Below are positions 61,010-64,000 of a stretch of 64,000 nt of DNA, piece after piece. Below the pieces are notes generated by a model, which did no database searches, was not told where the DNA came from, and worked only from the letters and a program-made list of their open reading frames with translations. The DNA is from Clostridiales bacterium (GTDB taxonomy: Bacteria; Bacillota; Clostridia; Oscillospirales; Oscillospiraceae). The DNA lies in the NCBI GenBank assembly GCA_021203185.1, contig JAJQBR010000075.1, forward strand, positions 1-64,000. Reading direction: 5' to 3'. Position 1 is the stretch's first letter. Every line of letters starts with the position of its first letter. The position numbers and the translations under genes were made by a program.

Positions 61010-62548
61010 ATGTTATCTTCATCCGTCATCTGTATGGTGATCGCTATCGTCTGCTATCTGGCGTTTCTGATTTACCTGGGCTTCCGCTGCGCGGGCGGCA
61101 ACCGCACCGTGGGCGACTACTACTTGGGCGGGCGCAAAATGGGGCCGCTGGTCACCGCCATGAGCGCCGAGGCGTCGGATATGTCCTCCTGGCTGCTGAT
61201 GGGTTTGCCCGGTGTGGCCTACGCCGCCGGTATCTGCGATGTGTTCTGGACCGCTCTGGGCCTGGGTATCGGCACCTATTTCAACTGGCTCATCGTAGCC
61301 AAGCGGCTGCGCCACTACTCCGCCTTGAATGACTCGGTCACCATCCCGGACTTCTTCGAGAACCGGTTCCGGGACAGCAGCCACATCCTGCTGGGGGTCT
61401 CCGCCCTGGTCATCGTGGTGTTTTTCATCCCCTACACCGCCTCCGGCTTCTCCGCCTGCGGCAAGCTGTTCTCCTCTCTGTTCGGCATTGACTACGTGCT
61501 GGCAATGATTCTCTCCGCCATTGTCATCATCGCCTATACCGCCGCCGGCGGCTTCCGGGCGGCTTCCCTGACGGACTTCGTCCAGTCCATTGTTATGACC
61601 GTGGCGCTGATTGCGGTGCTGTGCTTCGGCGTGGCCTGCGCCGGGGGCGTGGGCGAAGTGACCAGCTACGCCGGTTCTCTGCCCGGTTATATCGACCTGC
61701 TCAACACCCATGACTTTACCACCGGCACCGCCTCCTCTTACGGCGGCCTGCTGACCATCGTCTCCACAATGGCCTGGGGCCTGGGCTACTTCGGTATGCC
61801 CCACATCCTGCTCCGGTTTATGGCCATCGAGAACCCGGAGAAAATCAAGCTCAGCCGCCGGGTGGGAACCATCTGGGTGTTCATCGCTATGGGCATCGCC
61901 ATTTGCGTGGGTGTGGTGGCCCGCACCCTGACCCACGTGGGTATCCTGGAAGAGCTGGCCGACTCCGAGCGCGCCATCATCGGTATCGCTCAGTACCTCT
62001 CCAGCTTTGGCATTCTGCCCGCTCTGCTGGCTGGTGTGGTGCTGGCGGGCATCCTGGCCTGCACCATGTCCACCTGTGACTCTCAGCTGCTGGCAGCCTC
62101 CTCCTCCATCTCGGAGAACATCATCCACGGCGTGTTCGGCCTGAAGCTCAACGAAAGGCAGACCATGCTGATGGCTCGCGGCACCCTGTTGGTCATCGCG
62201 GTTATCGCGGTCATCTTTGCCCGCGACCCCAACAGTTCCGTGTTCGGCATCGTCTCCTTTGCATGGGCCGGATTCGGAGGCGCCTTCGGCCCGATTATGC
62301 TGTGCGCTCTGTTCTGGAAGCGCTGCAACCGCTGGGGCGCTATGGCCGGTATGGTCGGCGGCGGCGCGATGGTCTTTATCTGGGAGTACCTGGTCAGCCC
62401 CATGGGCGGCGTGTTCGGCATTTATGAGTTGCTGCCGGGCTTCCTGGTGGGTCTGTTGCTATGCTTTGTGGTCTCGCTGGCCACACCGGAGCCTTCCCAG
62501 GAGATTCAGGACGAGTTTGAGAAGGCCAAAGCGATGGACAAGGGCTGA
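61010..62548 (+). CDS. putP: Sodium/proline symporter (SSS family)
   Basis: GDYYLGGRKMGPLVTAMSAEASDMSSWLLMGLPGVAYAAG; LAGVVLAGILACTMSTCDSQLLAASSSISEN. Confidence 0.93.
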   Translation: MLSSSVICMVIAIVCYLAFLIYLGFRCAGGNRTVGDYYLGGRKMGPLVTAMSAEASDMSSWLLMGLPGVAYAAGICDVFWTALGLGIGTYFNWLIVAKRLRHYSALNDSVTIPDFFENRFRDSSHILLGVSALVIVVFFIPYTASGFSACGKLFSSLFGIDYVLAMILSAIVIIAYTAAGGFRAASLTDFVQSIVMTVALIAVLCFGVACAGGVGEVTSYAGSLPGYIDLLNTHDFTTGTASSYGGLLTIVSTMAWGLGYFGMPHILLRFMAIENPEKIKLSRRVGTIWVFIAMGIAICVGVVARTLTHVGILEELADSERAIIGIAQYLSSFGILPALLAGVVLAGILACTMSTCDSQLLAASSSISENIIHGVFGLKLNERQTMLMARGTLLVIAVIAVIFARDPNSSVFGIVSFAWAGFGGAFGPIMLCALFWKRCNRWGAMAGMVGGGAMVFIWEYLVSPMGGVFGIYELLPGFLVGLLLCFVVSLATPEPSQEIQDEFEKAKAMDKG

Positions 62549-62574: not shown

Positions 62575-62619
62575 AAACCCGCCTGAGCATCGGCTTTTCG
62601 CTGCTGTTCAGGCGGGTTT
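62575..62619 (+). terminator. Terminator after putP
   Basis: AAACCCGCCTGA...TCAGGCGGGTTT, 12-bp perfect arms. Confidence 0.8.
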
Positions 62620-62721
62620 CCGTTTGTTTATCGCTCCTTCCTGCAAATGCTGTCAGCTCAAAATTGGCCCATCCACAGCCCTGTGCAGAAGCAGTTTATG
62701 ATATGTATCATCCGTAAACCA

Positions 62722-62775: not shown

Positions 62776-64000
62776 TCAGAACTGGTCCGCCGCACGGGAA
62801 ATGGCCAGATTTGGCACCGTCCACAGCAACAGGAAAATCAACATGGTCAGCGGCGTCAGCGATGCGAAGGCCAGAGACCAGGTCAGGTAGAAGGCAAGAA
62901 CCAGACCCACCAGCGAGGCCAGCACGGCGATCCAGGCGTTCAGCCGAACCACAGCACACAGCCGCCGTCCGCCCAGCACCGCGTCGGAGTAGGAACCCAT
63001 CCCTTCGCGGGTCAGCAGCGCCCCTAACACCGGATTGTGAGGCTGCCCCGGCTCAGAGAGATCCCACCGCCGCTCAATGGGCGGGAACTCCATTTGGCTC
63101 ACCGGCAGGTCGTAGAGAGTTTGCAGCATACTGGGAATCACGTTAAAGTCCCGGGTGACCAGCACCGGACGCACCCCGCCTTTCACCAGGGCGCGAATCG
63201 CAGCCTTGGAGTAGTGAGACATCTCGTAATCCAGGCTGAAAAAGCCCGCCAGTCTTTTGTTAATGACGCAGTAGACCGTCCGGCGCAGTTTCATGCCGTT
63301 TTCCAGCTTGATGTTCATAACGGTCAGGAACCCGGACGTGCCAATCAACACCTGTTCCCCTCGGATATCCGCCGTCAGGCCCCCCGCCTCGTAGCACTCC
63401 AGGTTGTCCACCCGGCGGTAGAACCCGCCTTGACGGCGCAGTTCGGCGTCGAACAGATGGTAGAGGCCGCTGCCAGCGCTGCGCAGCATGGAGGCGGTGC
63501 AGCCGGTGAGTTTCTCCAGGGAGACGCCTTCGCTGTGCTTGATGGACTTCATGATGACGCTGCCTTCCGGGAATAAATCCTCGTCCTTGACCAGGATGTT
63601 GGCCTTGCCCCGCATGGAGGCCGCGCCGTCCCAGCCCGCCAGCACCGCTCCGGAACGATCCAGCCGACGGGTCAGGCGGAGATAGGGCTGACCAAAGGCC
63701 AGCAGTCCGCTGACCGGCGCCGCCGCCACGAGGATGGTGGACAGGCACCAGGGCAGCAGCGCCGGGCGGCCACAGCCTACTGAGGACACCACCGCGCAGA
63801 CGACAGCGGCCACGATCAGCACAGGGACCCAGGTGCGGTAGATGCGCTGGGCGCCGTCCATGCCCTGAATTTGACTGCCGAAGTCCTCTGCGGTGCCTTC
63901 CTCCCGGTTAAAGGCGCTGATGCCGTCCCACTGGTTTTCATCCAGTGTCACCCGATAGGGTTGGGACGAATTGGATGCCGTCCGGCAGGAGAGGTAGAGG
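62776..64000 (-). CDS. Degenerate P-type-ATPase-like membrane protein (5' end beyond the window)
   Basis: Frame stays open past the track ATG at 63951 to the edge (...LYLSCRTASNSSQPYRVTLDENQW). P-ATPase-like layout: AAPVSGLLAFGQPYLRLTRRLDRSGAVLAGWDGAASMRGKANILVKDEDLFPEGSV; ADIRGEQVLIGTSGFL; INKRLAGFFSLDYEMSHYSKAAIRALVKGGVRPVLVTRDFN; paired C-terminal TM helices. Confidence 0.6.
   Translation of the reverse strand, partial: LYLSCRTASNSSQPYRVTLDENQWDGISAFNREEGTAEDFGSQIQGMDGAQRIYRTWVPVLIVAAVVCAVVSSVGCGRPALLPWCLSTILVAAAPVSGLLAFGQPYLRLTRRLDRSGAVLAGWDGAASMRGKANILVKDEDLFPEGSVIMKSIKHSEGVSLEKLTGCTASMLRSAGSGLYHLFDAELRRQGGFYRRVDNLECYEAGGLTADIRGEQVLIGTSGFLTVMNIKLENGMKLRRTVYCVINKRLAGFFSLDYEMSHYSKAAIRALVKGGVRPVLVTRDFNVIPSMLQTLYDLPVSQMEFPPIERRWDLSEPGQPHNPVLGALLTREGMGSYSDAVLGGRRLCAVVRLNAWIAVLASLVGLVLAFYLTWSLAFASLTPLTMLIFLLLWTVPNLAISRAADQF

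Follow-up and report, generated by a model that had tools for sequence, protein, structure and literature searches.

A conserved, degenerate relative of copper-type P1B ATPases encoded next to rlmB

At the end of the 64,000-nucleotide stretch of DNA analysed in this study (positions 1 to 64,000 of the contig, referred to below as the window) lies a frame with the architecture of a P-type ATPase in which the hallmark motifs are altered. Is it a decaying gene, an assembly artefact, or a protein that has been retained without pumping? A sequence-only reading had proposed an intact frame of more than 1.2 kb coding for a catalytically degenerate P-type ATPase, had taken the intact frame and the retained domains as an argument against simple decay, and had suggested a role as sensor, regulator or partner.

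An intact P1B-type fold

Inside the window the frame is stop-free (62776-63999, minus strand) and its remainder lies beyond the window end. The complete gene occupies contig positions 62776-65250 on the minus strand and encodes 824 amino acids without internal stop, from an ATG at contig 65250 that is preceded by GGAGG. The proposed intact frame therefore held, on a strand that the earlier reading had not given, and the extension past base 64000 that it had recommended shows the gene intact up to contig 65250. The protein, referred to below as the pseudo-pump, consists of an acidic and proline-rich N-terminal region of ~283 residues, followed by a folded core made of the last 541 residues. Because of this composition, the N-terminal third is probably disordered, an inference that rests on sequence alone. 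The features of the window part are collected in Table 1. The neighbouring gene within the window (61010-62548, plus strand) is sodium/solute-symporter-like and convergent with the pseudo-pump gene; between the two, a hairpin followed by a T-rich segment (62577-62628) resembles a terminator.

Table 1. Features of the pseudo-pump gene inside the window (residue numbers refer to the 824-residue protein)
Feature	Position	Strand	Remark
Portion of the pseudo-P1B-ATPase gene inside the window (residues 418-824 and stop)	62776..64000	-	Gene continues to contig 65250
Actuator (A) domain remnant (426-465)	63856..63975	-	One beta-hairpin of ~40 residues, without TGES
Transmembrane helix M3 (466-492)	63775..63855	-	P476 conserved
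Transmembrane helix M4 (496-533)	63652..63765	-	P522 conserved
CPC position in M4 (511-513)	63712..63720	-	Reads APV; no conserved Cys or His here in the family
Motif I region (551-563, NILVKDEDLFPEG)	63562..63600	-	K555 at the phospho-Asp position; the family motif xDxDLFP stands where pumps have DKTGTLT
SEHPL position of the nucleotide domain (592-596)	63463..63477	-	Reads AGSGL; His lost
GxG position of the nucleotide domain (622-624)	63379..63387	-	Last Gly in 100/101 relatives
TGD position (699-701)	63148..63156	-	Reads TRD; D701 in 98/101, T699 not conserved
Segment 702-748	63007..63147	-	GDGxNDxP and its surroundings missing
Helix M5 and cytoplasmic extension (751-791)	62878..63000	-
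Helix M6 (800-822)	62785..62853	-	W810 conserved

Taken singly, the pseudo-pump is almost silent in profile searches: only NCBIfam copper-ATPase models respond, with E-values of ~0.001-0.002, no Pfam model matches the family at its cut-off, and PADLOC gave no match. Matches to Pfam DUF4231 and Arm-DNA-bind_3, which were sub-threshold and restricted to single members, were dismissed. Its descent is visible in family profiles. In hhalign, a profile of 101 relatives shared 501 aligned columns with 28 genuine P1B pumps from the same class (probability 99.6%, E 2e-24). A search of the PDB with an order-wide profile of 41 rows returned 21 sequences, all of which (21/21) are heavy-metal P1B ATPases, the top match being LpCopA (3rfu, E 6e-30). 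When the order-wide members were scanned one by one, 21 of the 41 matched TIGR01525 and 19 matched the CopA model (best 4.5e-17).

Structure prediction led to the same place. The AlphaFold model of the core is confident (pLDDT 94.1, pTM 0.88) and the secondary structure of the model yields eight helices, the equivalents of MA, MB and M1-M6 in P1B pumps. All 50 matches listed by Foldseek for this model are P-type ATPases, headed by LpCopA (4bbj, E 1.7e-16). A far member (L243) gave an equally good model (92.2) and the same best match (4bbj, E 1.3e-18). A chance resemblance to P1B pumps is rejected because of the strength of the PDB profile match and of the conservation of the family across the order. 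The structure and profile searches that the earlier reading had called for thus returned P-type ATPases, copper P1B pumps leading, and its claim of catalytic degeneracy is supported by profiles, by AlphaFold and Foldseek, and by the motif counts in homologues given below. Taken together, these results demonstrate that the pseudo-pump is, by descent and fold, an intact, conserved and degenerate P1B-type ATPase.

The closest match by both profile and structure is to the P1B-1 copper ATPases (CopA; LpCopA 3rfu/4bbj; TIGR01511, NF007952), with which the pseudo-pump shares the eight-helix topology and the head formed by the P and N domains. However, most members lack the phosphorylated Asp, and KTGT, GDGxND, TGES and a full A domain are absent; so are the CPC motif, the SEHPL His and the GMxCxxC metal-binding domain, in place of which the protein carries a disordered acidic tail.

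Loss of the catalytic and metal-binding motifs

Motifs were counted in 101 aligned homologues of the same family and in 41 order-wide members. Three alignments (hhalign, an HMMER comparison with LpCopA, and MAFFT on a mixed set including genuine pumps) place the phosphorylated Asp opposite K555; the claimed replacement of this Asp by Lys therefore held, as did the readings APV, VKDEDLFPEG (554-563) and TRD and the absence of GDGxND. The position is variable, being occupied by T (61), K (12), R (5), E (5) and others in the family, and by T (15), S (7), R (5), D (4), K (3) and others across the order. The four far members that keep the Asp (4/41; L241, L242, L243 and L246) do so without KTGT. 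By contrast with this position, the xDxDLFP motif that stands in place of DKTGTLT is nearly invariant in the family: D558 is found in 101/101, F560 and P561 in 100/101 and D556 in 97/101. DKTGT, TGE[SA], GDGxND and SEHP were each found in none of the 101 family members and none of the 41 order-wide members, so that no homologue with an intact DKTGT, which would have pointed to a merely local pseudogene, was present in either set.

The remaining elements are altered to different degrees. At the TGD position D701 is kept in 98/101 relatives and Thr 699 in only 42/101, and in the nucleotide domain the final Gly of GxG persists in 100/101. Residues 702-750 have a median length of 49 residues compared to ~75 from TGD to the next ADxV in genuine pumps, which indicates that GDGxNDxP has been deleted. 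The actuator domain has shrunk to ~40 residues forming a single hairpin that lacks TGES. As for metal binding, [CS]P[CH] in M4 occurs in 0/101 family members, GMxCxxC is absent from the window protein, and no conserved Cys or His remains in the membrane helices except C397 at the edge of M2 (71%). Neither are the criteria of a HAD phosphatase met: the DxD is off the position of the strand-1 nucleophile, motif IV is missing and motif II is not conserved. The pseudo-pump family has thus lost the residues of the phosphorylation cycle and those that bind metal, and therefore neither a standard phosphorylation cycle nor a P1B metal site is expected.

Selection, distribution and genomic neighbourhood

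Calculated for the five closest pairs whose synonymous sites are not saturated, dN/dS is 0.046-0.077 for the core and 0.20-0.27 for the tail, demonstrating that the core is under strong purifying selection. Almost all listed genomes have the frame unbroken. Within the GTDB family of the window, 187/201 genomes carry the gene, and among order genomes at least 90% complete the order-wide profile (E < 1e-45) detected a pseudo-pump in 241/247, the six without a match being G132, G226, G260, G285, G298 and G325. Named relatives that carry it belong to Oscillospiraceae (Flavonifractor, Pseudoflavonifractor and Lawsonibacter). In 235 genomes of the class outside the order, matches did not exceed 125 bits and were limited to positions ~185-465; those examined were genuine pumps with DKTGT. 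Conservation of xDxDLFP and a dN/dS below 1 were the tests that the earlier reading had set, and its argument against simple decay held on the dN/dS values and on the order-wide retention. Separate genuine P1B pumps are encoded in the same genome as the pseudo-pump. On contig G000:C77 (L076, L077), an 856-residue P1B-like frame with DKTGT and TGD represents a divergent P-type ATPase, whose matches to the heavy-metal family are weak and split.

The tail varies from almost nothing (L251) to ~600 residues while the core is of constant length; several far members (L241, L246 and others) measure 1089-1169 residues. Near the start of the protein, a motif [FY][ST][LVI][ED][ED]I[LM]xE[FY] is present in its strict form in 44/122 members, and looser forms were seen in many others. 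At the DNA level the pattern occurs once in the genome of the window, at the pseudo-pump gene, and the strict pattern was not found in any other protein of this genome. In 59 order genomes it gave 8 matches, 6 of them at or just before a pseudo-pump start; a reversed control pattern gave none in the same genomes. By inference, a short conserved peptide held away from a membrane anchor by a long disordered segment would make a typical docking device.

The genomic context is constant. Of 138 evaluable loci, 133 have rlmB, encoding a 23S rRNA 2'-O-methyltransferase, as the gene directly upstream on the same strand; in the remaining 5 rlmB is nearby. In the other families of the order rlmB lies upstream in 20/20 loci, in one case not immediately adjacent. 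Within the window's own family, ftsH on the opposite strand is often the next gene beyond. In the assembly studied here rlmB itself (contig C107, ~65268-66060; L002 5269-6061, minus strand) contains an in-frame TAG and a frameshift near a run of Ns; since close relatives have an intact rlmB, an error of assembly is the probable cause.

Elsewhere in the class, rlmB is followed by varied genes (for a sigma factor, a YacP-like protein and others), except in one family, f40, in which a complete CopA lies behind rlmB in 5 of the 6 genomes looked at (L314-L318). Like the pseudo-pump, this CopA is encoded immediately after rlmB and on the strand of rlmB, but its catalytic and metal-binding motifs, including GDGINDSV, are all intact. 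Its presence points, without proof, to a copA gene in the rlmB-linked slot as the origin of the pseudo-pump; we regard this origin as possible only, a chance coincidence not being excluded. In trees of P1B ATPases the pseudo-pumps form one clade on a long stem, and the trees neither join them to the f40 CopA nor exclude the grouping (p-AU 0.26). Attachment to rlmB-linked CopA, to ZntA-like or to other CopA groups was in no case rejected, and the rlmB tree did not unite f40 with the order. A trimmed tree that joined the pseudo-pumps to L141 and L321 at 98/99 was distrusted because of the long stem.

Possible functions and significance

What, then, might a P-type ATPase without its cycle do? On balance, we lean towards a non-pumping membrane scaffold or receptor with a partner-recruiting tail. 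This function is inferred, and no partner or binding data support it. In this model, the descendant of a copper-type P1B ATPase, which keeps the eight-helix bundle and the P/N-domain head but has lost the pumping machinery, would act as a static, membrane-anchored protein. The disordered tail, peptide-tipped in many members, would bind a soluble partner in the cytosol, with the altered head (DxDLFP, TRD, Arg) as a possible docking or ligand-sensing surface. Since the gene is constantly paired with rlmB, the partner may act in ribosome biogenesis or translation, which is likewise inferred and not shown. Three reservations apply: (i) adjacency to rlmB may reflect co-regulation only, (ii) some members show no recognisable tail motif, and (iii) two helix residues, D381 (M1) and D351 (MB), are fairly conserved, which leaves transport by another route conceivable. 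The role of sensor, regulator or partner put forward in the sequence-only reading is neither confirmed nor excluded by these data.

Several other explanations were weighed. The protein could be an active enzyme of altered chemistry, a membrane phosphatase or slow ATPase using the DxD of motif I together with D701 and R728. HAD enzymes do employ a DxD motif, and the window's own family shows high conservation of D556, D558, D701 and R728. However, the aligned DxD is one residue off the nucleophile position, which holds K, T, S or R, the acidic residues of motif IV are deleted, the Thr of motif II is poorly kept, and the DxD itself decays in other families of the order; we consider this explanation unlikely. 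Equally doubtful is a passive transporter or channel whose bundle conducts a solute without ATP. In its favour, all eight helices are retained with high model confidence, D381 (85%) and D351 (77%) are conserved, and P476 and P522 are kept in kinked helices. Against it, the residues of the P1B metal site are gone, the helices hold few conserved polar residues, and the actuator domain, which gates the pathway, is nearly absent.

A regulatory subunit of a genuine P1B pump in the same cell, acting as a dominant-negative or sensor partner, would fit the presence of such pumps in the same genome, and the fold would allow heterodimers. Yet in the loci read it is rlmB that constantly adjoins the gene, with no genuine pump recurring beside it, and almost all order genomes carry the family, which makes this role improbable too. 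A decaying pseudogene or an assembly artefact would account for the destroyed hallmark motifs, and the stop and N gap in the adjoining rlmB could be taken as a sign of it, but it is all but excluded: the frame is unbroken in almost all listed genomes, the new motif is invariant, and dN/dS (0.05-0.08) and the presence in 241 of the 247 good order genomes refute it.

In the open-access literature searched, we found no description of a bacterial family of non-catalytic P-type ATPase relatives; the pseudo-pump family is a non-catalytic P1B variant undescribed in that literature and in the libraries searched. The nearest published idea is human TMEM94/ERMA, for which a P-type-like architecture without detectable ATPase activity has been reported (PMC12134183). 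Its status as a pump is disputed, the contrary view being given in PMC13322241, and unlike the pseudo-pump it is eukaryotic, has ten helices, is closest to Ca2+ pumps (SPCA) and possesses an A-like domain. For ATP13A5, a P5B relative, no autophosphorylation was seen, which may be technical as the authors could not reproducibly express the protein (PMC5837089); in contrast to the pseudo-pump, ATP13A5 keeps the typical P-type motifs.

P-type ATPases are textbook pumps, and a non-catalytic family in a dominant gut order stands out. Automatic annotation may miss these proteins or misname them metal pumps, and the f40 CopA and the pseudo-pump, found in the same slot, may be a before-and-after pair. 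Because it is near-universal in a large order of gut and digester bacteria, occupies a fixed operon slot and is not recognised by Pfam at its cut-off, the pseudo-pump is probably an important and overlooked cell component. Beyond the scaffold reading favoured above, a bolder and less probable version is possible, in which an order-defining core protein would have turned the fold of a copper pump into a membrane platform that tethers RlmB, maturing ribosomes or another core machine by a docking peptide at its N terminus and so connects ribosome biogenesis with the membrane. If this were true, the two would be tied together across a major gut clade.
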